A stretch of 64,000 nucleotides of DNA from Allohoeflea poritis (GTDB taxonomy: Bacteria > Pseudomonadota > Alphaproteobacteria > Rhizobiales > Rhizobiaceae). Location: the NCBI RefSeq assembly GCF_027889715.1, contig NZ_JAPJZH010000001.1, positions 496,001 through 560,000 on the forward strand, given 5' to 3'. The notes under the pieces are model-generated. The model worked only from the letters and a program-made list of their open reading frames with translations, was not told where the DNA came from and did no database searches. The position numbers were made by a program, and so were the translations under genes. Below, one piece after another: positions 2,295 to 25,420 of this stretch (position 1 is the stretch's first letter; every line of letters starts with the position of its first letter).

Positions 2295-2600
2295 ATGCGC
2301 GGAATAACCATCACCTATAAATATTCCGGTCCTGAGGAAGACTGGCGAAACGCCATGGAAAGCTTCATCTCGGCGATCGACAACGACAGCGAAATCGCCG
2401 GCAAGTTCACCTATCAGGTCAGTGTCGCCGATGACGGCGAGACCCGCATCCATTGGGGCCGCTGGGACAGCCAGGATACGCTCAAGGCGCTGCAATCCCG
2501 CGATTATTTCTCGGCCTTCGCCGCGAAGGTGAAACAATTCGCAGGCGGGCAGCCGCAGACCACCGGCGCCGACATACACTTCAAGACGCAGGGCTGGTAG
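2295..2600 (+). CDS. Hypothetical protein, possible ABM-like fold
   Basis: A 101-residue soluble protein. The start at 2295 is set by GGAGG 5 bases upstream; the ATG at 2283 lies ahead of that site. The pattern (beta strand, amphipathic helix, HWGRWDSQDTLKALQSRDYFSAFAAKVKQF) resembles small dimeric alpha/beta barrel proteins of the antibiotic-biosynthesis-monooxygenase type. This is a shape-based guess only. It has its own promoter and ends facing the TPR gene. Function unknown. Confidence 0.65.
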   Translation: MRGITITYKYSGPEEDWRNAMESFISAIDNDSEIAGKFTYQVSVADDGETRIHWGRWDSQDTLKALQSRDYFSAFAAKVKQFAGGQPQTTGADIHFKTQGW

Positions 2601-2611
2601 GCCCCGACACC

Positions 2612-3277
2612 TCAGTTTTTCGGTGCGATGCGGGTCTTGGACTTGGCGCGCCGGTCGATCTGGATCTGCTGGCGCATCAGCACTTTCTCCGTGCGCTCAA
2701 TCAGATCGAGATAGTAGGCCGCTTCCTTGGAGCCGAATTGTTCGCTGGCTATTTCCAAGTGGGTGCGCGCGTCATCGAAACGCTGCGTCAGGAAGTAGAC
2801 TTCGCCAAGATTGCTGTGGACGGCGCCTTCCGTATAGGTATCAGTTCCCTTTGTCAGTTTCGCCGCGAGTAGCAACAGCCGCTCAGCCCTCCCGAGATCA
2901 CCGTTCTTCAGGCTAACCCAGCCGGCCGTGTTGACCAGCGTGAAATCGTCGATCTGCTGTTCCTTGCGTATGCGCAACGCATTGTCGAATGCAGACGTGG
3001 ATTTCTCGTAGTCACCCAGCTCGTGATAGGTCAGACCGAGATTGAAGTGGGCCCGGTAATAGTCGGGCTTTACGGAAATGACCTCCTCAAGCACCTGCGC
3101 AGACCTTTTGGGGTCGTACTTGTCCTTCTGATAGGGCAAACGCATGAGACGCGCCTGCAGCACCATCTTTTCCAGACGGGACGGAACCTCCTGGCCGAAC
3201 TTGTCCAGGGCGACGGCCGGCCCGCTGAGCAGCAGTGCCAGGACCAGCGCGGCGGCCCGAAAGAAACTGGTTTTCAT
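2612..3277 (-). CDS. Exported TPR-repeat protein
   Basis: 221 residues. A signal peptide (MKTSFFRAAALVLALLLSGPAVA) is followed by at least three TPR-like repeats: YYRAHFNLGLTYHELGDYEKSTSAFDNAL, FTLVNTAGWVSLKNGDLGRAERLL and AVHSNLGEVYFLTQRFDDARTHLEIA. TPR repeats bind other proteins, so this is probably a periplasmic adaptor. The C terminus is basic. It follows the 3282-3848 membrane protein gene after 4 bases, so the two are cotranscribed and may act together. An in-frame ATG at 3289 is less likely. The partner is unknown. Confidence 0.75.
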   Translation of the reverse strand: MKTSFFRAAALVLALLLSGPAVALDKFGQEVPSRLEKMVLQARLMRLPYQKDKYDPKRSAQVLEEVISVKPDYYRAHFNLGLTYHELGDYEKSTSAFDNALRIRKEQQIDDFTLVNTAGWVSLKNGDLGRAERLLLLAAKLTKGTDTYTEGAVHSNLGEVYFLTQRFDDARTHLEIASEQFGSKEAAYYLDLIERTEKVLMRQQIQIDRRAKSKTRIAPKN

Positions 3278-3281
3278 GCCA

Positions 3282-3848
3282 TCACCCACCGCTCAAGATC
3301 CGAATGGCGCTGACAGGCGGCGGCGGTTCGGGTCTGGCGGCCACTGGCTCATCGTCTTCCGGCCGGCCCGGTGCCCCGGTCGTTCGCCGCGCGGAGTTGA
3401 TCACCGTGAGCTGCGCCTGAATCTTGCGAATTGCACCGGCGACCTTTTCTGCATTGAGCTGGATCTCGTCGTTCTGACCGTAGGTGCCGCTATAGGGATT
3501 GTTGATAAGCTCGTGAGTCTGGCCCTTGTGAACGAGGAGAATGTCGCCATAGCCCTGCTCCCACTCCGGATGGGTCATCGTGATGTGGAGCTCGACCTCC
3601 TTGACCGATGTGTAGCTCTCCAGCGCCAACGTCACCCATTGCAACGGCCCGGCGCACAGCATGAAAACCAGCGCGATCTTGAGGAAGAACCGGCTCAGCC
3701 CGACCGCGGCTTCATTCGGATCGGGCTGGGTCACGATCTGTTTGACATTCATGTAGCCGAGCACAACGAAGATGGTCGACACGCCGAGAAAGCCGAATCC
3801 GAGGATCGTCGCCGCGTTTTGAAAAAGTCCCTGCACTGCACTATCCAT
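3282..3848 (-). CDS. Hypothetical inner-membrane protein
   Basis: 188 residues. There are two predicted membrane helices, about residues 13-33 (TILGFGFLGVSTIFVVLGYM) and 53-75 (FFLKIALVFMLCAGPLQWVTLAL), then a soluble region and a proline-rich tail ending PEPPPPVSAIRILSGG. No known family recognised. It is first in a two-gene operon with the exported TPR protein, suggesting an envelope complex. The Pro-rich tail could be a protein-docking segment. Confidence 0.6.
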   Translation of the reverse strand: MDSAVQGLFQNAATILGFGFLGVSTIFVVLGYMNVKQIVTQPDPNEAAVGLSRFFLKIALVFMLCAGPLQWVTLALESYTSVKEVELHITMTHPEWEQGYGDILLVHKGQTHELINNPYSGTYGQNDEIQLNAEKVAGAIRKIQAQLTVINSARRTTGAPGRPEDDEPVAARPEPPPPVSAIRILSGG

Positions 3849-4079
3849 GGCCGCCCCTTTACAAACGCAATGTTTTCCGGCGTGTCGGTTATTTTGTATA
3901 CAGCCGGTTACTTTTGGGCGAATGCCAGTAAGTCATTTTTATTTATATTGTTATCTTACTTTCCTAAATTTCGGAGTAATCGGTTTCGCCCATTTACAAC
4001 CGGCACTATAGCGAAAAATACATGGGCGACATAGTGCACGATTTAGGAATTGCATTGTGAATTCTGGGAATCGGTCGCT
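3849..4079. other. AT-rich intergenic region
   Basis: About 230 bases between the membrane protein gene and the end of the LysR gene. 3890-4030 is clearly AT-richer than its surroundings and should hold the promoter for the minus-strand pair. No gene, repeat or confident terminator was found. Confidence 0.5.
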
Positions 4080-5003
4080 TCATCCGGTTGTGCCGGTTGC
4101 CGGCAGGCCGCCGCACCGATCAACCAGAAAGTCGACAAAGGCGCGCACCTTTGCCGCCAGATGTACCCGGCTCGGATACAGCGCGAAGACGCCGATCGGC
4201 TCTTCTTCGTAGCGCGTGAGAATCGGAACAAGAGCGCCGGAAGCGATCTGCTTCTCACATGCCATGCTCGGCAGCCTGGTTATACCTGCGCCGGCCAGCG
4301 CCACGGACAGTTCGGTTTCCGCGCTGTTGCAGACCAGTCTCGGTGCCACGGAGACCGGAATTCTCCGGCCGCCGTCACCCTTGTATTCCCATGTCGTCGC
4401 CGTTCTGCGATAGGAAAAATCAATCAGTGTGTGGCCGGCCAGTTCCGCCGGTGTTTCGGGCATGCCGTGACGGGCAAGATAGGCCGGCGAAGCAACAGTC
4501 AGAAGACGTGTTGTCATGAGCCGCCTGGCTATGAGCCCGGTGTCGTCGAGCCGCCCCGCCCTGACAACGACATCGAAACCTTCGGCAACAACATCCGCCA
4601 TCCTGTCGCTCGCCTCGATGTGGAGCCGCACACTGGCATAGGTCTCCATGAACTCCGGCAGCCATGCATCGAGATAGTTGCGTGCAAAACTGACCGGAAC
4701 GCTGACGCGCAAAAGACCGGCAGGCTTGTCGCCGACCGCCCGGATGCGATTGCGGATCTCGCGGGCATCCTCGACGATCGTCCGCGCCTGCTCGTAGTAG
4801 GTCCGGCCGATTTCCGTCAGGCTCAAGGTTCTGGTTGTGCGGTTCAGAAGGCGCGCGCCGAGACGCTGCTCGAGGCGCGCGACCTCCTTGCTGATATGGG
4901 ATGCGGAATGACCGAGGCGTTCAGCAGCGGCAGCAAATCCGTTTTCATCGACCACCGCACAAAAGATGACCATGCCATCAAAGAGATCTCTATTATTATC
5001 CAT
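4080..5003 (-). CDS. LysR-family transcriptional regulator
   Basis: 307 residues. The N-terminal winged helix (FAAAAERLGHSASHISKEVARLEQRLGARLLNRTTRTLSLTEIG) is followed by a LysR substrate-binding domain starting about residue 90 (LLRVSVPVSFARNYLDAWLPEFMETYASVRLHI). It belongs to the CrgA/DsdC-like group by overall pattern. Divergent from the VOC and isochorismatase-like genes, which it probably controls. A TTATTAT/ATAATAA dyad covers its start codon. The effector is unknown. Confidence 0.88.
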   Translation of the reverse strand: MDNNRDLFDGMVIFCAVVDENGFAAAAERLGHSASHISKEVARLEQRLGARLLNRTTRTLSLTEIGRTYYEQARTIVEDAREIRNRIRAVGDKPAGLLRVSVPVSFARNYLDAWLPEFMETYASVRLHIEASDRMADVVAEGFDVVVRAGRLDDTGLIARRLMTTRLLTVASPAYLARHGMPETPAELAGHTLIDFSYRRTATTWEYKGDGGRRIPVSVAPRLVCNSAETELSVALAGAGITRLPSMACEKQIASGALVPILTRYEEEPIGVFALYPSRVHLAAKVRAFVDFLVDRCGGLPATGTTG

Positions 5004-5016
5004 ATAGAAATAATAA
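4993..5016. promoter_or_regulatory. Candidate LysR autoregulatory dyad
   Basis: TTATTAT (4993-4999) and ATAATAA (5010-5016) are inverted arms 10 bases apart, overlapping the LysR start codon (5003). Spacing fits a LysR T-N11-A type site, but the AT-rich context weakens the call. Confidence 0.35.
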
Positions 5017-5119
5017 CCTTCTTTATCCTCTATTAAAATGAGATTCGAAGCGAATTAGATTTGCTCCTGCCGGGTTGCAAGCCCTCGCCTGCCCCGCCAA
5101 CCCGAAACAGGAGCGTGCA

Positions 5120-5551
5120 ATGCTGAAGATAAGGAATGTGGACCACATCGGCATCCGCATCAGCGACCGGGAGAGGTCCGTCGCCTTCTACCAGTTGCTC
5201 GGATTTGAGCTTGTCGCCGATGGCGGCTTCGAAAACGGCCACCCGCTGGTCATGGTTCATCCGAGCGGCATCAACTTCAACCTGCTCGGTCCTGCCAATG
5301 CACGCGCGGGCGAGAACGTCCTGATGGATGAGGACGCCAAATATCCGGGCATCACCCATGTCGCGCTCAAGGTCGAGTCGGCGGAGGCGTTTGTTTCCGA
5401 AAACGGCATTGCAATCACCGGCAGGCGCGATTTCCGCGGAACCAGGACGATCTTCATCCGCGATCCCGACCGCAACGTGCTCGAACTGGTCGGACCCGGC
5501 CCTGCCGTTTCCGAACTGATCAGGGAGCATGTTGCGGAAAACAAAAGCTGA
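5120..5551 (+). CDS. VOC (glyoxalase/dioxygenase-fold) protein
   Basis: 143 residues with one vicinal-oxygen-chelate unit: VDHIGIRISDRERSVAFYQLLGF at the N terminus and IFIRDPDRNVLELVGPG at the C terminus, carrying the usual His and Glu metal-ligand positions. Start at 5120 follows CAGGAG 7 bases upstream. The isochorismatase-like gene follows 23 bases later, and the LysR gene is divergent. Substrate cannot be read from the sequence; lactoylglutathione lyase-like or dioxygenase roles are both possible. Confidence 0.8.
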   Translation: MLKIRNVDHIGIRISDRERSVAFYQLLGFELVADGGFENGHPLVMVHPSGINFNLLGPANARAGENVLMDEDAKYPGITHVALKVESAEAFVSENGIAITGRRDFRGTRTIFIRDPDRNVLELVGPGPAVSELIREHVAENKS

Positions 5552-5574
5552 TCCTCAAGAGAAAGGCCAGAACA

Positions 5575-6333
5575 ATGAAACTAGCAACCATGATGTCAGC
5601 CGGCGCGTTTGCCTTGGCAACCGCACTCACGCCACTGCAGGTCGGTGCGGCCAATGCCGTCGAGATCAAAACCGTCAATGGTGTCGCGTCCTACCCGGAA
5701 GGCTATCAGGGAACGCCGCACCGGGCCGCCGACGAGGACCCGTTCCTGTCGCCGTCCAACGCGGCGCTTATCCTGATCGACTACCAGCCGCCGATCCTTC
5801 AAGGGGTGCACAGCATCGATCACGATGAGCTGATCAACAACACCACCGGTCTCATCAAGACCGCGGTGATCTACGACATACCGATCATCTTTTCACATGT
5901 CGCCGTCGGTCTGAACGGCTACGCCCCGATGATCGAAGAGTTGCGGGCGCTTGCACCCGACGCGGTCTTCGTCGACCGCACCAATGTCAATGCCTGGGAA
6001 GAGCCGGAATTCGTTGCAGCCGTCGAGGCGACCGGACGCAAGAAGCTGATCATGGGCGGGCTGTGGACCGATGTATGTCTGGCCTATCCCGCGATCGAAG
6101 CCGAAAAGGCCGGCTACGACGTCTATGTGCCCGAAGATACGGTCGGCAGCATTTCGCAGATGTCCCACGAGAACGGCATGCGCCGGATGATCGAAGCCGG
6201 CGTGGAGCCGATCACCTGGAATGTGGTGCCGGCCGAGTTGCAACGCGATCACGCACGGACAGACCGGCTGAAGGAAGTCACACGGGTCTTCATGGAACAC
6301 CTGTTCAAGGTCGACCCGGATTCAACCTGGTAG
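5575..6333 (+). CDS. Exported YcaC-like isochorismatase-fold hydrolase
   Basis: 252 residues. A cleavable-looking signal peptide (MKLATMMSAGAFALATALTPLQVGAANA) precedes an isochorismatase-like cysteine hydrolase domain. The catalytic Asp is in LILIDYQ (D69) and the nucleophile in GGLWTDVCLAYPA (C168). RTNVNAWEEPEF resembles the YcaC subgroup (R/x-x-N-x-NAW) rather than nicotinamidases. Secretion is unusual for this mostly cytosolic family. Cotranscribed with the VOC gene. The substrate is unknown, probably an amide or related small molecule. Confidence 0.8.
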   Translation: MKLATMMSAGAFALATALTPLQVGAANAVEIKTVNGVASYPEGYQGTPHRAADEDPFLSPSNAALILIDYQPPILQGVHSIDHDELINNTTGLIKTAVIYDIPIIFSHVAVGLNGYAPMIEELRALAPDAVFVDRTNVNAWEEPEFVAAVEATGRKKLIMGGLWTDVCLAYPAIEAEKAGYDVYVPEDTVGSISQMSHENGMRRMIEAGVEPITWNVVPAELQRDHARTDRLKEVTRVFMEHLFKVDPDSTW

Positions 6334-17942: not shown

Positions 17943-20900
17943 TTACAGGTCCACCTTTACCACGCCGCCTTTCTCCTGCGCGCGTGAACAGCACAGGATG
18001 ATCTTTTGCTCCCGCTCCCTCGCAGACAGGACGTGGTCGCGGTGTTCCACGTCTCCGGTGACAAGCGGCGCGGAACAGACGCCGCAAAGGCCATCGCTGC
18101 ATTTCACATCGACGGCAATGCCGGCGGCATTGAGCGCATCGGCGGCGGTTTCGTCCGCGGGCACCTTTATGGTGCGACCGGATTTCGTGAGCTCCAGTTC
18201 AAAATCAAAATTGACATAGTCCGGTGCCTCTGGAACGGAGAAGTACTCCTTGAGAAGCGCCTCTTCCGGCCAGCCCTTGGCCCCGGCGGCCTCGAATACG
18301 CCGTCCATGTAGCGGTCAGCGCCGCAGGTATAGAGCCGGAAACCCTCCCGGTAGCCGGGTATCAGCTCGGGCAAGTTGGCGCGCTTGCCGTCGGCGGAGA
18401 AATGGAAGAATACGCGCTCGGACCAGGGCATTGCCTTCAGTTGACGCGCGAAGCCGGACTGCTGTTCGGATTTGGCGCTGTAATGGAAGATGAACTCACG
18501 TCCGAGTGCGTGGAGCCGGTGCGCCATGGTGATCAGCGGCGTGACCCCGATGCCGCCCGCCATGAGGATGGAAAAAGGCGCTTCCTCGTCCAGCGGAAAA
18601 TGATTGCGCGGCTCGGAGATAAAGACCCGCCTGCCCTCCTTGAAGACACGGTACATGAGGAGCGATCCGCCGCGGCCCTTTTCCTCTTTCTGAACGCCGA
18701 GAACATATTTGCTGTTGTCCGAGGGATCACCGGCGAGCGAATACTGGCGCTGATATTCGGGCGCGATGACGACGTCGACATGGGCACCTGCATCAACCGG
18801 CGGCAACAGCTTTCCATCGGCCCGCGTGAGTTCGAAAAGGACGATGTCATCGGCAAGGTCCTCACGTTTCGAGACGATCACCGGAAAGACCGGCGGCGGC
18901 CCGTCCAGCGAGCGCGCCTTCGGCGTCAGGCCCTCGGTATCGCCGGCTGCGAGTTTTTTGCGGTAATCCTCCGGCGTCAGCATGGTGCGGTAGCGCTCAA
19001 TGCCCTCTTCGCGGTTGAGCGGATGCGTTACCGGATAGGGCAGCGGCATGACATCCGCCGGATAGACGGCAAGCGTCTGGTCCTCATATCTGACGTCGAG
19101 TTGTTTTGAGAGCCCGCGCCGGTTTGCCGACTCTGCCTGCACATAACGGCCCTGTTGTGTGTCGAGTTCGACGTCCCACCACCATGTCTTGACGGGATTG
19201 ATCTCGCCGCGCCCCAGCGCGTCATCCATTGCCGCCAGCGTTTTGGCGCTTTTCGGCGCGTTGATCGCCAGCCAGCGAAACGCCTCGTCGGCAAAGAGGC
19301 CCTCCAGGTTCCAGGGACAGGTCTTCATGCAGCGCCCGCACATGCCGCCGGCCGTATTGGTGATACGGTATCGGGCGCACTTCTCGGCATCGGATTTCCA
19401 GATCTCGTAGCCATTGTACATCAGCTTGGGGCCGGCCGTGATCGCACCGGACGGACATTCACGGGCACATTTGTTGCAGGAGTTGCAGAAATGCTGAAGA
19501 CCGAAATCGATCGGCTTGTCGTGGGTCATCGGCATGGATGTCGTCACGACACCGGATTTCAAACGCGGGCCGAGAAACGGATTGAGGATGACCTCGCCGA
19601 TCCGGCTCACCTCCCCCAGACCGGACAGCAATAGGAGCGGCGGCTGCAGGACGTCGCCGTCAAGCACCGAATGAACCCGGGCGGAGTAGCCCAGCCGGCG
19701 TATCTGCTCGCCAATCACGCCGCCAAGCAGCGAAAAACGCAAATAGGCACGCATCGATTGCGCCACCGAGATCCAGTCGTCGCCGCTCGCGCCCTCCATC
19801 GTCTCGAAGCCCTGGTCGAGCAGCAGCGAAACGCCATTGTCGTGGTAGGGCTGCAGCGGATTGCCGCCGGCATCGTGCGAATAATAGGCCCATTCGGGCA
19901 CCCGGCTGAGACCCACCGCATCGGCGGACAGATAGTAGGAGGCGGCCTTGAGATTGTCGGCGTTGCGGGCCGGGTCCGTCGCCTGCGGCGAGACCGGTCC
20001 CCGCGCCTCGCCGAACTGAAGAAGCAGCAGTGCGCCGAGCGCCCGGCGCGCGCAGGCGCCGATTGGGCTTTTCATGACATACATGCCGCCCTTGGCGCCT
20101 TCCTGGACCTGTTTGCCCATATCGCCGAAAAGCGCCCGGGCAAAGAAATCGGCCCGTTTGGGAAAGCGCGGCACACGCTCCTCGTCGATGAAGGTGGTCG
20201 GCTCGTCGCGGCGCTTGATCGTCTCGAAGGGGTGCGGCCCCATGCGGAAATCGCGGTCGCGATACGGAATGGCTGTCGCCGCCCGCCGGTCCGTTCCCCG
20301 GCCCATCCACCAGTCCGGGCCGTGGGACCGCCATCCGGCACGGCCGCCATGCTCGCCGAGCGGCGCATCCGGCACCATCTCAAGCGTTGTGGTCACCGCG
20401 GCGAGCCCGAACCGCGGACCAACAAAGGGATTTGCCAGAACAACGCCGTCCTCACCGCGCTCCACCGAGCACAGACCCGACGACACGCCGAGCCGGTTCA
20501 GATCGACATCCGACGTTGTCGCCGTATGGGCACGGGCCTCGTAACCGAGCATCCGCAGATAGTTGGCGATCACCACGGCGACATTGGAGGTCAGCAGTGC
20601 GGCGCGCTCAGCCTGAGTGTCAACGAACCACTCCGTGCCCGGCTCATCCGGGCGCGGGTCGCGCGTATGCTCGACAAGAAAGACCAGCGCATATTTGTGG
20701 TGATCGACCGGCCCAAGCTCCACGCGGGTCGATTCCAGCACGTCGGCATAGATCGCATCGATGCCGGAGGCGAAACTTTTCGGCTGGCCGGCTTCCAGCT
20801 CCGCCTTGATGTCGTCGATCATCGGGTTGCGGAACGGCTCTGCCAGGAAATGTTCTCCCTCAAGACGCGCGATACCGACCATGGAGGCATCGAAATAGTA

Positions 20901-21176
20901 GCCCGCTGCCTTGAGATGATTGGAGCGTTCCTGGAGATCGTCCGGAATCTCCGCTTCGCCGTGGACGATCTTGCCGTCGCGCACGGTGTCCATCATGGCA
21001 AGGAACCGGGCCATGGCATGGGCCAGCGATTCCTGCGGATGGCGCGCGAAATCCATCGGCCGCATTGGCGCGATATCCGAGAGATCCGGATCGGCCGTTG
21101 ACCGGTTCAGCCTTTCGAGCGGAAAGGGGCCAAGATGGAAGGGGCGTTTTCTGGTCGAGAAGAGATTGACGTTCAT
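17943..21176 (-). CDS. rdhA: Self-sufficient catabolic reductive dehalogenase
   Basis: 1077 residues. Region 1 (about 40-275) and region 2 (about 400-555) are two copies of the reductive-dehalogenase B12-binding fold (LKAAGYYFDASMVGIAR against LKAASYYLSADAVGLSR; NPFVGPRFGLAAVTTTLEM against NPFLGPRLKSGVVTTSMPM). Two 4Fe-4S sites follow, C564-x2-C567-x2-C570-x3-C574 and C600/C613/C616/C620. From about 765 comes a fused phthalate-dioxygenase-reductase-type module: flavin-binding RQYSL, NAD(P)-binding MAGGIGVTPLI, and a C-terminal 2Fe-2S ferredoxin (C1026, C1031, C1034, C1062 or C1063). No Tat signal, so cytoplasmic. This is the BhbA/NpRdhA type, which removes halogens from haloaromatics with NAD(P)H as electron source. 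MarR gene just upstream. Confidence 0.92.
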   Translation of the reverse strand: MNVNLFSTRKRPFHLGPFPLERLNRSTADPDLSDIAPMRPMDFARHPQESLAHAMARFLAMMDTVRDGKIVHGEAEIPDDLQERSNHLKAAGYYFDASMVGIARLEGEHFLAEPFRNPMIDDIKAELEAGQPKSFASGIDAIYADVLESTRVELGPVDHHKYALVFLVEHTRDPRPDEPGTEWFVDTQAERAALLTSNVAVVIANYLRMLGYEARAHTATTSDVDLNRLGVSSGLCSVERGEDGVVLANPFVGPRFGLAAVTTTLEMVPDAPLGEHGGRAGWRSHGPDWWMGRGTDRRAATAIPYRDRDFRMGPHPFETIKRRDEPTTFIDEERVPRFPKRADFFARALFGDMGKQVQEGAKGGMYVMKSPIGACARRALGALLLLQFGEARGPVSPQATDPARNADNLKAASYYLSADAVGLSRVPEWAYYSHDAGGNPLQPYHDNGVSLLLDQGFETMEGASGDDWISVAQSMRAYLRFSLLGGVIGEQIRRLGYSARVHSVLDGDVLQPPLLLLSGLGEVSRIGEVILNPFLGPRLKSGVVTTSMPMTHDKPIDFGLQHFCNSCNKCARECPSGAITAGPKLMYNGYEIWKSDAEKCARYRITNTAGGMCGRCMKTCPWNLEGLFADEAFRWLAINAPKSAKTLAAMDDALGRGEINPVKTWWWDVELDTQQGRYVQAESANRRGLSKQLDVRYEDQTLAVYPADVMPLPYPVTHPLNREEGIERYRTMLTPEDYRKKLAAGDTEGLTPKARSLDGPPPVFPVIVSKREDLADDIVLFELTRADGKLLPPVDAGAHVDVVIAPEYQRQYSLAGDPSDNSKYVLGVQKEEKGRGGSLLMYRVFKEGRRVFISEPRNHFPLDEEAPFSILMAGGIGVTPLITMAHRLHALGREFIFHYSAKSEQQSGFARQLKAMPWSERVFFHFSADGKRANLPELIPGYREGFRLYTCGADRYMDGVFEAAGAKGWPEEALLKEYFSVPEAPDYVNFDFELELTKSGRTIKVPADETAADALNAAGIAVDVKCSDGLCGVCSAPLVTGDVEHRDHVLSAREREQKIILCCSRAQEKGGVVKVDL

Positions 21177-21181
21177 GGCTT

Positions 21182-21631
21182 TTAAAGGCGGACCAGCTCC
21201 CTCGTTTCGCCGGCCGACAAAGCGTCGATCAGGCGCAGCACGGCATCAAGGTCGTCCTTTGCGATCTTGCCGGCATATTGATCGTTGAGCTGTTCAACCA
21301 GCGGGCGGCATTCTTCCATGACCGCCCTGCCCTTTTGCGTCAGCCTGATCTCGACGCCGCGGCCGTCGCCATCGACCCCGCAACGCCGAATCAAATCCAT
21401 GTCTTCCATGTTCCGCAGGGCGCGCGAAACCGCCGAACGCGCAATGCCGACATAATTTGCCAGCGCCGAAGGCGTGTTGACATTCTCCAACCCCACACCG
21501 CTCAGGATGCACCACATCAGACGCGTTATGCCGAGCGGGCTGATCATCTCCTCGAGCTCGGTCTCCATCAATCGGGCAAGGCGGGAAACCTTGTATCCGA
21601 GCCTGGAGTGCAGCCGGTAGCCGCAATCCAT
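21182..21631 (-). CDS. MarR-family regulator of the dehalogenase
   Basis: 149 residues with a MarR winged helix: PSALANYVGIARSAVSRALRNMEDMDLIRRCGVDGDGRGVEIRLTQKGRAVMEECRPL, where the DGDGRGVEIRLT wing is diagnostic. It starts the operon and ends 5 bases before the dehalogenase gene. MarR proteins commonly release DNA on binding aromatic acids, which would fit induction by a haloaromatic substrate; this is inference. ATG 21631 follows CCGGAGGAA. Its TTGACA and a GTTAATTAAC palindrome lie just upstream. Confidence 0.9.
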   Translation of the reverse strand: MDCGYRLHSRLGYKVSRLARLMETELEEMISPLGITRLMWCILSGVGLENVNTPSALANYVGIARSAVSRALRNMEDMDLIRRCGVDGDGRGVEIRLTQKGRAVMEECRPLVEQLNDQYAGKIAKDDLDAVLRLIDALSAGETRELVRL

Positions 21632-21667: not shown

Positions 21668-21722
21668 TGGTTACCGACGTTAATTAACAATGTCAATTAT
21701 TTACTTGCGATGTTAATCAACA
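21668..21722. promoter_or_regulatory. Divergent promoter region with MarR-type dyads
   Basis: A perfect palindrome GTTAATTAAC (21679-21688) sits inside the spacer of a minus-strand promoter (TTGACA at 21696-21691, TAACCA at 21673-21668), and a near copy, TGTTAATCAACA, occurs at 21711-21722, centres 33 bp apart. The pair lies between the MarR gene and the divergent dehydrogenase gene, so one regulator could control both operons. Confidence 0.55.
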
Positions 21723-21802: not shown

Positions 21803-22765
21803 ATGCAGAAACCTGAAATCCTGATCGCCGGCCGGCTGATGCCGGCTGCGCTTGAAAGCCTCAAGCACGCCTTCACCGTGCACGAGGCCTATGAGACGGA
21901 TGCGTTGGAAGCCGTGATCCAGGCGTCCGGCGAACGCATTCGCGGCGTCGCTAGCAGCCCGTTTCGAAGCGTGAACCGAGATCTGATCCTTCGTCTTCCC
22001 AATCTGGAAATCATTGCGAATTTCGGCGTCGGCTATGACAATATCGACGCCTCGCTCGCCGCAGAAAATGATGTCATCGTGACGAATACGCCCGATGTGC
22101 TGACCGACGAGGTGGCCGATACGGCGATCGGCCTCCTGATCATGACGGCCCGCGAACTCTCCGCGGCGGAACGTTGGCTTCGCGCCGGCAACTGGCAAAA
22201 AAGCTACCCGCTCACGCGCGGTACATTGCGCGACAAGAGGCTTGGCATTTTCGGCCTCGGGCGAATCGGCCGCGCGATTGCCCATCGGGCACAGGCCATT
22301 GGCATGGAGGTCTGTTACCACAACAGATCGCGCTTGCGCGATGTAAACTATCCATACATTTCAAGCCTGCGTGAACTGGCGACCCACTGCGACGTGCTTT
22401 TGTGCGCCGCCCCCGGCGGAGAAGCCACGCGCGGCCTGATCGGTCCCGACATCTTCGAGGCACTGGGTCCGGACGGCATATTCATCAATATCGGTCGGGG
22501 TTCCACCGTCGACGAGACCGCCCTCATCAAGGCGTTGAAGGACGGGACCATCATGTCGGCCGGCCTCGATGTCTTTGAAGACGAACCCAATGTCCCGGCG
22601 GAATTGCTGGCAATGGATCACGTTGTTCTGCTGCCGCATGTGGCCTCCGCCTCACAGCATACACGCAACGCGATGGCGCAGTTGCAGGTCGACAATCTGA
22701 CCGGCTGGTTCGAGAAAGGCGCACCTGTAACGCCGGTCGCCGAAACGCCCTGGCCACGTTCGTGA
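21803..22765 (+). CDS. D-2-hydroxyacid dehydrogenase (NAD(P)-dependent)
   Basis: 320 residues of the 2-hydroxyacid dehydrogenase family. The Rossmann motif is GIFGLGRIGRAIAHRAQAIG, the substrate/cofactor segment INIGRGSTVDETAL precedes the catalytic Arg and Glu region (SAGLDVFEDEPNVPAEL), and the catalytic His lies in VLLPHVASAS. By pattern it is closest to glyoxylate/hydroxypyruvate reductases. It is first in a plus-strand unit with two transporters, divergent from marR-rdhA, so it may work on a 2-oxo or 2-hydroxy acid formed from or imported with the dehalogenase substrate. Confidence 0.88.
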   Translation: MQKPEILIAGRLMPAALESLKHAFTVHEAYETDALEAVIQASGERIRGVASSPFRSVNRDLILRLPNLEIIANFGVGYDNIDASLAAENDVIVTNTPDVLTDEVADTAIGLLIMTARELSAAERWLRAGNWQKSYPLTRGTLRDKRLGIFGLGRIGRAIAHRAQAIGMEVCYHNRSRLRDVNYPYISSLRELATHCDVLLCAAPGGEATRGLIGPDIFEALGPDGIFINIGRGSTVDETALIKALKDGTIMSAGLDVFEDEPNVPAELLAMDHVVLLPHVASASQHTRNAMAQLQVDNLTGWFEKGAPVTPVAETPWPRS

Positions 22766-22808
22766 CAAGTTGAGGCAAGCCAGCATCCGGAACTTGCGCA
22801 AGAGCAAT

Positions 22809-24098
22809 ATGGGCACACAGCAGGTAAATCCAGACGAGAAGCGCAATCTGTCGGTCCTGTTCGGCCAGCGCGCGCTTCAAACCGTTGGCTGGTCCATGTC
22901 CAACCCGGCCGTTGTGCTGTCCTATCTGGCAATTTCGATGGAGATGCCGATCTTACTGGCGGGCCTGCTTGTCAGCGTGCGGCGATCCGGCAATGTCGGG
23001 ATGGCCGTGTTCGGCTCCAGCGCCGCGGCCCGCCTTGTCAACAAGAAAGTCGTCATCGCCCGGACGGATTTCATACTCGCCCTGTGCGCCCTTCTCGCTA
23101 TTGCCTCGGTCCTGACGACGTCTACAGCTGTCGTGACAGCCACGTTTTTCTTCGTCGTCCTGATGATCGGCATGGTCGAGGAATATCAGAATCTCATCAA
23201 CTGGGATTTCCTGGCCGATGTGCTTGAGTCCCAAAACCGCCAGCGCCTGATCTACGCGGCCATGGGCATCGGCGGCACATGCACGATCGCATTTACCTGG
23301 GCCGTGCATGTCGCAACGCAGGAATACCCGGCCTTTGCCCGGCACGCGGCGGTTGTCGCCATCGCGGTCCTCAGCTTCTCCATCGCGGCATTGTCCGTGT
23401 TGCAGGTTCGCGACCTGAGAGTTGCAACAAACGACAATCGCGCGACAGGTGAGCGCCGAAACTTTCCACAATCGGCCCGGCTCGCCCTTCTGGATTTTGT
23501 CTCCAAATTGCGGGACCTGCTGACCATGCCGTGGTTCCGCCGGTTCCTGATGATCCGGCTGGCGCTGCAGACCGTCGAACTGTCCATACCGTTTTTCGCG
23601 ATCCTTGCCGCCATTGCCCACAGCGCCTCGCACAAGGGATTGACTGCGCTGATTATCTCTTCCGCGGCTGCACTGATGCTTGCCGGCCCTATCTGGCGTT
23701 CGATCGGTCGGCTGTCGAACGGGATGGTCATGGCCTGCGGCTCTCTGCTTGCGGCGGCGAGCGGAGCCGCGCTGGTCCTCAATCACTATGTGCCCACAGT
23801 CGACGATACCATCGCCCACTCGGCCGCGCTGTTCGCCGTCACGGTCGGTGTTCAGGGCGTTACCAATGCCCGGGCGCTTTGGTATCTGGACAACGCGCCC
23901 AAGGCGCATCGGGTGGCCGGCCTTGCAACATCCAAAAGTGTCGTCAAGGTATGGAGCGTCGTGCTTGCGGCCCTCATGGCGGCACTGGCGCACGCACAGC
24001 ACATTGCCCTGGCAGTTTCCCTTGTATCCTTTCTTAACCTCTGTACGGCAATATTCATCCTGTCGATCTCGGGCCGCGCGAAAGCTGCAGCGGCCTAG
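22809..24098 (+). CDS. MFS-like transporter, copy 1
   Basis: 429 residues, about ten to twelve membrane helices, no well-known MFS signature. It opens EKRNLSVLFGQRALQTVGWSMSNPAVVLSYLAIS. Other features are MPWFRRFLMIRLALQTVELSIPFFAILAA (centre) and GVQGVTNARALWYLDNAP (late), which all recur in the next gene. Start at 22809; the gene begins 43 bases after the dehydrogenase. Position opposite the dehalogenase suggests import of the substrate or export of a product; the substrate is unknown. Confidence 0.75.
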   Translation: MGTQQVNPDEKRNLSVLFGQRALQTVGWSMSNPAVVLSYLAISMEMPILLAGLLVSVRRSGNVGMAVFGSSAAARLVNKKVVIARTDFILALCALLAIASVLTTSTAVVTATFFFVVLMIGMVEEYQNLINWDFLADVLESQNRQRLIYAAMGIGGTCTIAFTWAVHVATQEYPAFARHAAVVAIAVLSFSIAALSVLQVRDLRVATNDNRATGERRNFPQSARLALLDFVSKLRDLLTMPWFRRFLMIRLALQTVELSIPFFAILAAIAHSASHKGLTALIISSAAALMLAGPIWRSIGRLSNGMVMACGSLLAAASGAALVLNHYVPTVDDTIAHSAALFAVTVGVQGVTNARALWYLDNAPKAHRVAGLATSKSVVKVWSVVLAALMAALAHAQHIALAVSLVSFLNLCTAIFILSISGRAKAAAA

Positions 24099-24127
24099 GT
24101 TGTAAATTGCGATGGCACAGCATTGGT

Positions 24128-25420
24128 ATGAACGACACTCAGTCTCTAACTGAAAAACGCAACCTGTCCGTCCTGTTCGGCCAAGGGACGTTTTCGACCA
24201 CAGCCTGGACAATGGCCAATCCGTCCGTTGTCCTGACCTATCTTGCAATCTCGCTGGAACTCCCCGTCTTGCTGGCCGGTATGCTCGTCACATTCGGTCA
24301 GGCTGCATGTCTGATGACGGCGATTTTTGCGACGCCGATCGCGGCACAAAGACCGCAGAAAAAAAGAGACCTGGCGGCAACCGATATTGTTCTGGCGGTT
24401 GCATTCGCCGTGGCATTGGCTGCCGCCGCTTTCGGAACACCTCTTGTGGTCGGGATCTGCTTCGTTTTTGTCATACTCGTTGTCAAAGCGACGTCCGAGT
24501 ATCAGGCCATCATAACCGCCGGGTTTTACGGGGAAGTTCTCAATTCGCGGTCGCGTACACTGCTGATGTATTCGGTCATGACCCTGGGCGGAATCGTAAC
24601 CGGTACGTTGGCCTGGTCGGCGCATCGGGCGTTCTTTGACGATCCGCCCTTTGACCGCCATGTGGTGCTGGTCACGATCGGTGTTGCCTGTTTTGTTGTC
24701 GCGAGCGCCGTTATCCTGCTGGTCCGCGAATTCGAGAGGGTGGCGCGGGAGACACCGGCCTCCGTCGATAAAGCAGTTCACAAGTTCTCGATTGCCGCAC
24801 AAACAAGCGAGGCCATTGACAATTTGCGCCTGCTGATCGGGATGCAGTGGTTCCGTCGCTACCTGCGCGTCCGGCTGGCATTGCTGACCGTCGAACTTTC
24901 CATCCCCTTCTATGCCATCCTTGCCGCCCTGGCACACCACACGTCGCCCAAGGGCCTTGCCGCGCTTATCCTGTCATCGGCGACCGCGCTCATCGTTTCC
25001 GGACCGCTTTGGGGATTGGTGGGAACCAAATCGACACGAACCGTCATGACGGCAGGTGCAAGCCTGGCAGCCCTGGCCGGTGCCATTCTGGTTGCGAACT
25101 TCTTTTATCCGGTCATCGACTCGCCCTATATCCACGCGATCGCGTTGTTCATCGTGACCGTTGCGGTGCGAGGCGTATCGACGGCGCGCTATCTCTATTT
25201 CATGGATGTCGCGCCGGAAGAATACGCCGTCATCGGTATCGGCGTCTCCAAGGTCGTGGTTCGAACCGTTGGAATCGCTTTGTCCTTTGCCATGGCGTCC
25301 GTTGCCCATCTGCAGCATGTGATCTGGGCGATCCTGGCGCTGGCGCTGATCAACGCCATCACGGCGGCGCTCACCTATCGCACGGCCGGCAATCCCGACA
25401 CGAAGACTCAGCTGATATAG
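24128..25420 (+). CDS. MFS-like transporter, copy 2
   Basis: 430 residues and a clear paralogue of the preceding gene: EKRNLSVLFGQGTFSTTAWTMANPSVVLTYLAIS, MQWFRRYLRVRLALLTVELSIPFYAILAA and AVRGVSTARYLYFMDVAP match the copy-1 motifs position for position, with lower identity between them. Twelve or so membrane helices. The 29-base gap shows cotranscription. The two could form a heterodimer or handle different substrates. It ends 6 bases from the convergent glutamate-synthase-like gene. Confidence 0.75.
   Translation: MNDTQSLTEKRNLSVLFGQGTFSTTAWTMANPSVVLTYLAISLELPVLLAGMLVTFGQAACLMTAIFATPIAAQRPQKKRDLAATDIVLAVAFAVALAAAAFGTPLVVGICFVFVILVVKATSEYQAIITAGFYGEVLNSRSRTLLMYSVMTLGGIVTGTLAWSAHRAFFDDPPFDRHVVLVTIGVACFVVASAVILLVREFERVARETPASVDKAVHKFSIAAQTSEAIDNLRLLIGMQWFRRYLRVRLALLTVELSIPFYAILAALAHHTSPKGLAALILSSATALIVSGPLWGLVGTKSTRTVMTAGASLAALAGAILVANFFYPVIDSPYIHAIALFIVTVAVRGVSTARYLYFMDVAPEEYAVIGIGVSKVVVRTVGIALSFAMASVAHLQHVIWAILALALINAITAALTYRTAGNPDTKTQLI

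Follow-up and report, generated by a model that had tools for sequence, protein, structure and literature searches.

Within a 64,000-nucleotide stretch of the Allohoeflea poritis genome (contig NZ_JAPJZH010000001.1, positions 496,001 to 560,000; here called the window), a gene encoding a reductive dehalogenase (rdhA) lies directly behind a gene for a MarR-family regulator, and the palindrome TAATTAACAATGTCAATTA, a candidate operator, sits between the MarR gene and a divergent gene for a 2-hydroxyacid dehydrogenase (Table 1). The rdhA open reading frame (ORF) is a single minus-strand frame that fills positions 17943-21176 from its ATG start to its stop. It is exactly the 1077-residue polypeptide that a first-pass annotation of the same DNA had placed there without stating a strand. 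The MarR gene, on the same strand, stops 5 bp short of the rdhA start codon, and the two are therefore likely to form one operon.

The first-pass annotation had described this polypeptide as a B12-dependent dehalogenase core joined to two 4Fe-4S clusters and a C-terminal NAD(P)H-FMN-2Fe-2S reductase and had named profile searches as a check. All of these parts were recovered. The NCBIfam reductive dehalogenase model TIGR02486 matched the protein above its cut-off (199.1 versus 160.35 bits), and Pfam matched Fer2 and 4Fe-4S domains. When solved structures were searched, residues 2-108 and 159-743 matched chains of NpRdhA (6zxu, 7e-161; 4ras, 1e-160), with PceA also among the matches, and residues 768-1068 matched phthalate dioxygenase reductase (PDB 2PIA, 9.5e-52), a stand-alone partner of an oxygenase; two P450-fused reductases scored slightly better than the latter (8.5e-57 and 1.6e-56). 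Full-length homologs were found at 50-90% identity. On these matches, the rdhA product joins a B12/4Fe-4S dehalogenase core and an FMN/2Fe-2S reductase in one chain and is of the catabolic type.

Residue conservation was tallied over 24 aligned homologs of the product, and the correspondence to NpRdhA was taken from an alignment with its structure. Residues F345, S474, M475, Y478, K540, and R604 correspond to F291, S422, M423, Y426, K488, and R552 of NpRdhA, and each is present in 24/24 homologs. As far as the accessible text of the NpRdhA study goes, the substrate hydroxyl is bound there by K488, R552, and S422, and the proton probably comes from Y426 (PMC7565698). The cysteines of both 4Fe-4S clusters (C564, C567, C570, and C574; C600, C613, C616, and C620) are likewise invariant (24/24), as the annotation would have it. 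It had also bounded the 2Fe-2S cluster by C1026 and C1063; the cluster stands, with C1026, C1031, C1034, and C1062 kept in 24/24 homologs, and C1063 does not stand as a ligand, being a cysteine in 12 of the 24 only, so that C1062 is most likely the fourth ligand. We take R810-x-Y812-S813 to be the FMN motif (Y812 is replaced by phenylalanine in two of the 24) and G875-x-G877-x-T879 to be the pyridine-nucleotide motif.

A feature that the earlier anatomy had overlooked is a duplication of the core. Residues 1-305 and 306-745 matched each other by BLASTP at 2e-16 and by profile-profile comparison with 99.5% probability, and the equivalents of Tyr478 and Lys540 in the first half are Ala193 and Gly257. 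By this comparison the N-terminal part is a vestigial copy of the core that lacks the catalytic tyrosine and lysine. A vestigial duplicated core is a described trait of catabolic RdhAs in the accessible text of the study of JtRdhA (PMC10463259).

Table 1. Features at the rdhA locus and at a second MarR locus of the same genome
Feature	Position	Strand	Basis or remark
rdhA, 1077 aa, self-sufficient catabolic reductive dehalogenase	17943..21176	minus	vestigial core, B12/2x4Fe-4S core, and FMN/NAD(P)H/2Fe-2S reductase
Vestigial duplicate of cobalamin core, ~residues 1-290	20307..21176	minus	BLASTP between halves
Catalytic core, ~residues 306-660	19197..20261	minus	alignment to NpRdhA
Two 4Fe-4S motifs, C564-C620	19317..19487	minus	Pfam and homolog tally
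Phthalate-dioxygenase-reductase-like domain, ~residues 760-1077	17946..18899	minus	TIGR and structure matches
2Fe-2S motif, C1026, C1031, C1034, C1062	17991..18101	minus	Pfam and homolog tally
MarR-family regulator	21182..21631	minus	linked to rdhA in other loci too
Operator-like palindrome TAATTAACAATGTCAATTA (candidate)	21681..21699		49 bp upstream of MarR start codon
Second, overlapping weaker palindrome copy	21668..21686		2 mismatches, shifted 13 bp
D-2-hydroxyacid dehydrogenase, divergent	21803..22765	plus	glyoxylate reductase models match best, but below cut-off
Two tandem proteins, ~440 aa each, mutually 42% identical	22770..25420	plus	starts uncertain
Second MarR, palindrome-like site, and TRAP DctPQM genes, without rdhA	L093 (G000:C22:141400-147400), 2557-5954

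The first-pass annotation had assigned the protein to a BhbA/NpRdhA architecture, which is right for BhbA. BhbA of Comamonas sp. 7D-2 (plasmid pBHB, WP_015585978) has the same fused full-length architecture, is 51.2% identical throughout, and has all catalytic and cluster residues in common with the window protein. It differs in belonging to a separate, well-supported clade, in being plasmid borne near protocatechuate 4,5-dioxygenase genes and a tripartite-tricarboxylate-transporter binding protein, and in that the 1.5 kb upstream of it contain neither a MarR homolog nor the palindrome. JtRdhA of Jhaorihella thermophila (WP_104007082), likened here by its published description, has the same domain order, no Tat (twin-arginine translocation) signal, the duplicated core, and the six active-site residues; in the accessible text it was active on brominated and iodinated compounds and not on the chlorinated ones tested (PMC10463259). 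NpRdhA of Nitratireductor pacificus (PDB 4RAS and 6ZXU) shares the catalytic and vestigial cores (E ~1e-160) and the active-site residues, but it belongs to a "truncated" subfamily that, according to the same text, has no fused reductase (PMC10463259). The self-sufficient fused RdhA is already a named subfamily, of which, by that account, one alone has been studied in detail so far (PMC10463259). One-polypeptide, oxygen-tolerant dehalogenases are sought for the clean-up of brominated and iodinated phenols. The enzyme type is known, and the new element at this locus is the link of the MarR gene and the palindrome to rdhA.

This link was surveyed in 32 fused rdhA loci. A MarR homolog was counted when tblastn matched the window MarR at 1e-5 within 1.5 kb upstream of rdhA, and the palindrome was scored against the consensus TARTTRACNNNGTYAAYTA at 16 positions. 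The consensus was drawn up after the first loci had been inspected, and the held-out loci are L061-L068 only. The survey left out short copies of the same places (L001-L015), a locus at a contig end (L016), unfused or partial forms (L017-L020, L048, and L069-L085), three loci from the same places as L035, L033, and L037 (L021, L022, and L026, respectively), and L032, in which rdhA is in two pieces. By tblastn, a MarR gene lies upstream in 12/32 loci, and all 12 carry a site matching 13-16 of the 16 positions; block shuffles equaled the real site in 0/200 trials in eleven of them and in 2/200 in L030. The other 20 loci reach at most 12 positions. Counted by MarR linkage, the palindrome is present at 12/13 MarR-linked loci of the set (12/14 with L032 added) versus 0/19 without MarR. 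Among the held-out loci, L061 has both MarR and a 16/16 site, and L062, L063, and L065-L068 have neither. On the rdhA tree, the MarR label requires at least 4 changes, compared with 9.8 on average for shuffled labels, and the MarR-palindrome pair is found in three distinct regions of it.

Eight genomes of the genus contain five perfect palindromes, one in each genome with the window type of rdhA and always before MarR-rdhA, and none in the other three; with up to one mismatch allowed, the pattern occurs at 14 places and its reversed control at 5. In the A. poritis genome (5.58 Mb), the perfect palindrome occurs once. A literature search, with subscription papers outside its reach, returned no report of a MarR operator at a catabolic rdhA. 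MarR-type control of rdhA reportedly exists in Dehalococcoides. The main value of the locus may lie in this switch rather than in the enzyme, as the MarR gene and the conserved palindrome mark which homologs pair with which transporter and open a direct experimental path to the inducer, and hence to the natural substrate. Taken together, the regulator and its presumed operator hint at how expression of the dehalogenase is switched on. A palindrome-like match of the TTGACA type at C11:366707 (L092) lies between divergent MatE and TetR genes and was taken to be a TetR site; one-mismatch sites resembling its sequence are present in G001, G002, G003, G004, and G005. The remaining two-mismatch matches in the A. 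poritis genome, apart from the C22 one described below, were set aside as no more frequent than those of the reversed control.

The transporter in question is of the tripartite ATP-independent periplasmic (TRAP) type. In the Aminobacter locus L028, the MarR gene diverges from an annotated TRAP transporter, and in L037 and L045 (G001) it diverges from homologs of that transporter. The gene clusters that include the TRAP genes annotated in L028 and in L032 each draw on six loci, of which L035 and L040 contribute distant members. No TRAP transporter was recognized adjoining the window's rdhA. Elsewhere in the same genome, a palindrome-like site with two mismatches (C22:144469-144487) lies between a second MarR gene and DctP-DctQ-DctM genes. 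This second MarR is 72% identical to the MarR of G001 and 55% identical to that of the window, and its TRAP proteins resemble the rdhA-linked ones of G001 (DctP, 75-80%; DctQ, 67%; DctM, 85% identity). The 6-kb stretch around it gave no rdhA-like match better than E 0.14. Some 2 kb past the second MarR is a pcaD-like gene (263.6 bits; cut-off, 255.85). On the MarR side of this locus (L097), a LysR-like ORF and a membrane-protein-like ORF were also seen, as judged by eye from their translations. No report of a TRAP transporter at a catabolic rdhA was found in the literature search, which did not extend to subscription papers. We hypothesize, at about even odds, that a dedicated alphaproteobacterial MarR/palindrome switch unites self-sufficient RdhAs with TRAP uptake of a natural halogenated aromatic acid and that in A. 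poritis the system is divided between two loci, both of which have a MarR gene and a site of their own and are coinduced in trans. If this is true, the MarR protein would provide a sensor of ortho-halogenated phenolic acids ready for use.

These elements can be assembled into a working model. By analogy with JtRdhA, for which such a route was proposed from spectroscopy and kinetics in the accessible text (PMC10463259), NAD(P)H would reduce FMN in the C-terminal reductase, and electrons would pass from FMN through the 2Fe-2S cluster and the two 4Fe-4S clusters to cobalamin in the core. The first-pass claim that the enzyme needs no separate electron donor applies to a separate redox partner protein, and NAD(P)H would still be required. 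Tyr478, tuned by Lys540 and Arg604, may protonate a phenolic substrate as its ortho halogen departs, and the dead N-terminal duplicate may replace a dimer partner. The annotation had left the substrate open; because the pocket is conserved and JtRdhA and NpRdhA have been characterized, it can be narrowed to what are likely ortho-halogenated phenols, best a 4-hydroxybenzoate or a 4-hydroxyphenylacetate. The presence of pobA and pcaH in the genome also helps to narrow it, and the likely substrate is an acid resembling an ortho-halogenated 4-hydroxybenzoate. A precedent for control is BhbR2 of Pigmentiphaga kullae H8, likened here by description, a MarR-family protein of a halogenated hydroxybenzoate pathway that binds 3-bromo-4-hydroxybenzoate and an AT-rich palindromic operator. 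BhbR2 differs, in the accessible text, in activating a 3-bromo-4-hydroxybenzoate operon whose first gene encodes a hydroxylase and in its operator, TTGATT-N5-AATCAA (PMC12016517). In A. poritis, the MarR protein encoded upstream of rdhA would bind the 21681-21699 palindrome and, once it detects the substrate or a related compound, allow expression of MarR-rdhA and perhaps also of the divergent 2-hydroxyacid dehydrogenase gene, a possible second target of the putative operator. The acid would probably be imported by the TRAP transporter encoded beside the second MarR and its related site. The dehalogenated product, most likely similar to 4-hydroxybenzoate, would pass through PobA to protocatechuate 3,4-dioxygenase. 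The genome encodes PobA (662.1 bits; cut-off, 538.7), PcaH (366.6 bits; cut-off, 296.4), and the B12-synthesis marker CobN (1321.8 bits; cut-off, 24.5). For this explanation as a whole, from enzyme type and electron route to MarR control, TRAP uptake, and the PobA/protocatechuate route, we estimate a probability of roughly 0.8.

Several observations weigh against it. No aromatic-ring gene was recognized adjoining the window's rdhA, and pobA and pcaH are on contigs other than that of rdhA (cobN, likewise, does not adjoin it). PF13486 had no match in the Pfam table of the product and none in a search of the A. poritis genome, an absence that says little because the same search was positive in 0/14 control genomes. 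AlphaFold2 predictions, made from alignments with 7 similar rows, gave a mean predicted local distance difference test (pLDDT) score of 42.2 for the whole protein, with values of 60-87 in parts of the reductase domain only, and of 31.1 for core residues 305-745; both are probably low because the alignment was not deep. Two-mismatch palindromes number 6 in the A. poritis genome compared with 7 for the reversed control, so that the C22 site is at control level and is made notable by its neighbors, not by the quality of its match. L064, which is absent from the rdhA tree, has a distant MarR (23% identity) and no palindrome, and in L032 the MarR gene is on the far side of the TRAP operon, rdhA is in two pieces, and there is no palindrome. 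Near-copies also inflate the palindrome count, L024 and L037 being near-identical and the window and L033 close.

That the enzyme could instead be a respiratory, energy-conserving reductive dehalogenase is scarcely credible. The TIGR02486 family is shared with such enzymes. However, no twin-arginine motif was seen by eye in the first 60 residues, and the genes adjoining rdhA (MarR and ATP-grasp) include no membrane anchor gene, no genome-wide anchor search having been made. A respiratory RdhA with its Tat signal and adjoining RdhB anchor was rejected on these grounds. Absence of a Tat signal and of an anchor, an NAD(P)H reductase, and a duplicated core are the marks of the catabolic type in the accessible text (PMC10463259), and the fused reductase and duplicated core found here bear out the annotation's view of the enzyme as catabolic. 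An epoxyqueuosine reductase similar to QueG, or another B12/Fe-S reductase without dehalogenase activity, is very improbable. QueG belongs to a related family, as that text has it (PMC10463259), and there was a weak match to TIGR00276, but at 25.3 bits against a cut-off of 200 an identity as QueG was rejected, and all six NpRdhA active-site residues are kept. The genome also contains two separate ORFs of QueG size (330 and 338 aa, at C1:169336 and C11:52956) with weak similarity to the RdhA core, where one QueG per genome is expected; G007 likewise has two.

The nature of the substrate and the role of the regulator admit alternatives that carry more weight. With the same fold and cofactors, the native substrate may be no halo-hydroxybenzoate; it might, for instance, be a halogenated acid derived from tyrosine (3-halo-4-hydroxyphenyl-acetate, -lactate, or -pyruvate), and the dehydrogenase would then belong to the same pathway. 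We regard this as rather unlikely, yet JtRdhA acts on 3-bromo-4-hydroxyphenylacetate at 99.3% of its top rate, as well as on dibromohydroxybenzoate, in the accessible text (PMC10463259). In addition, a D-2-hydroxyacid dehydrogenase gene diverges from the same intergenic stretch in the window, L033, and L034, and the window clade is apart from that of BhbA. Against it, the dehydrogenase matches glyoxylate reductase models best without reaching their cut-offs, no homolog of it was found beside MarR-rdhA in L035, L037, L045, L023, L024, L028, L030, or L032, the one in L036 is ~7.5 kb off, and a literature search joining bromotyrosine with aerobic reductive dehalogenases returned nothing. It is also possible, if decidedly improbable, that the MarR-palindrome pair is an unrelated neighbor that travels with the locus: MarR genes are common, the MarR label is partly shared by descent, and the near-copies add to the count. 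However, the pair occurs in the three parts of the tree in differing chromosomal or plasmid surroundings, with the changes of label given above, the held-out L061 has both members, and no other perfect site exists among the eight genus genomes.

The first-pass annotation had called this architecture known from few organisms, which the distribution contradicts. The fused full-length form was found as 16 copies in 15/101 related genomes (A. poritis included), among them 8/8 of the genus, in which the fused enzyme is usual, not rare; one further copy, in G083, is cut by a contig end. The unfused NpRdhA form was found, at E 3e-121 or better, in four more of the 101 genomes (G080, G091, G096, and G097). 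In an even, class-wide sample of 385 genomes, a match at E up to 1e-130 was present in 24, of the fused form in 9 (A. poritis included) and of the unfused form in 15. Identity to the rdhA product was 90% in Nitratireductor sp. XY-223, 79% in an alphaproteobacterial metagenome-assembled genome (MAG), 72% each in Chelativorans sp. ZYF759 and Mesorhizobium sp. Z1-4, 71% in a Rhizobiaceae MAG, and 67% in a Hydrogenophaga MAG. In a plasmid collection, 8/955 matching records cover at least 80% of the protein, including pBHB (BhbA, 51%). The rdhA match on a plasmid of Yoonia sp. SS1-5 (L032) is split into two pieces that overlap no annotated gene, adjoins a TRAP operon and a MarR gene, and is possibly a decaying copy.

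In the 31-row tree, the window rdhA groups with G007, G006, G003, and G004 (support, 100/99); this clade adjoins Chelativorans and two others and is distant from the pair formed by BhbA and Nitratireductor sp. OM-1. In five genomes of the genus (the window and L033-L036), rdhA occupies the same location before a cluster of ATP-grasp, alpha-E, and transglutaminase genes. The rdhA identities in those loci (90, 81, 79, and 78%) fall within the bounds set by the flanking cluster genes (70-95%), pointing to vertical descent in this branch.

The neighbors of the closest homologs gave no hint of the substrate. In the loci of G003 and G004, genes of the trimethylamine methyltransferase-like MTTB family (L035:6521-8140 and L036:6788-8326) diverge from MarR-rdhA and occupy the place that the 2-hydroxyacid dehydrogenase gene has in the window. 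The tandem pair of genes 3' of that dehydrogenase appears transporter-like, with at most a subthreshold Pfam match, the second protein being weakly similar to the major facilitator superfamily (30 bits; cut-off, 33.4). In L034 (G006), which also has a histidine kinase gene nearby, the genes for oxygen-independent ubiquinone synthesis, ubiT, ubiU, and ubiV (L034:5434-7894), lie directly 3' of rdhA on the same strand, between it and the ATP-grasp/alpha-E/transglutaminase cluster.

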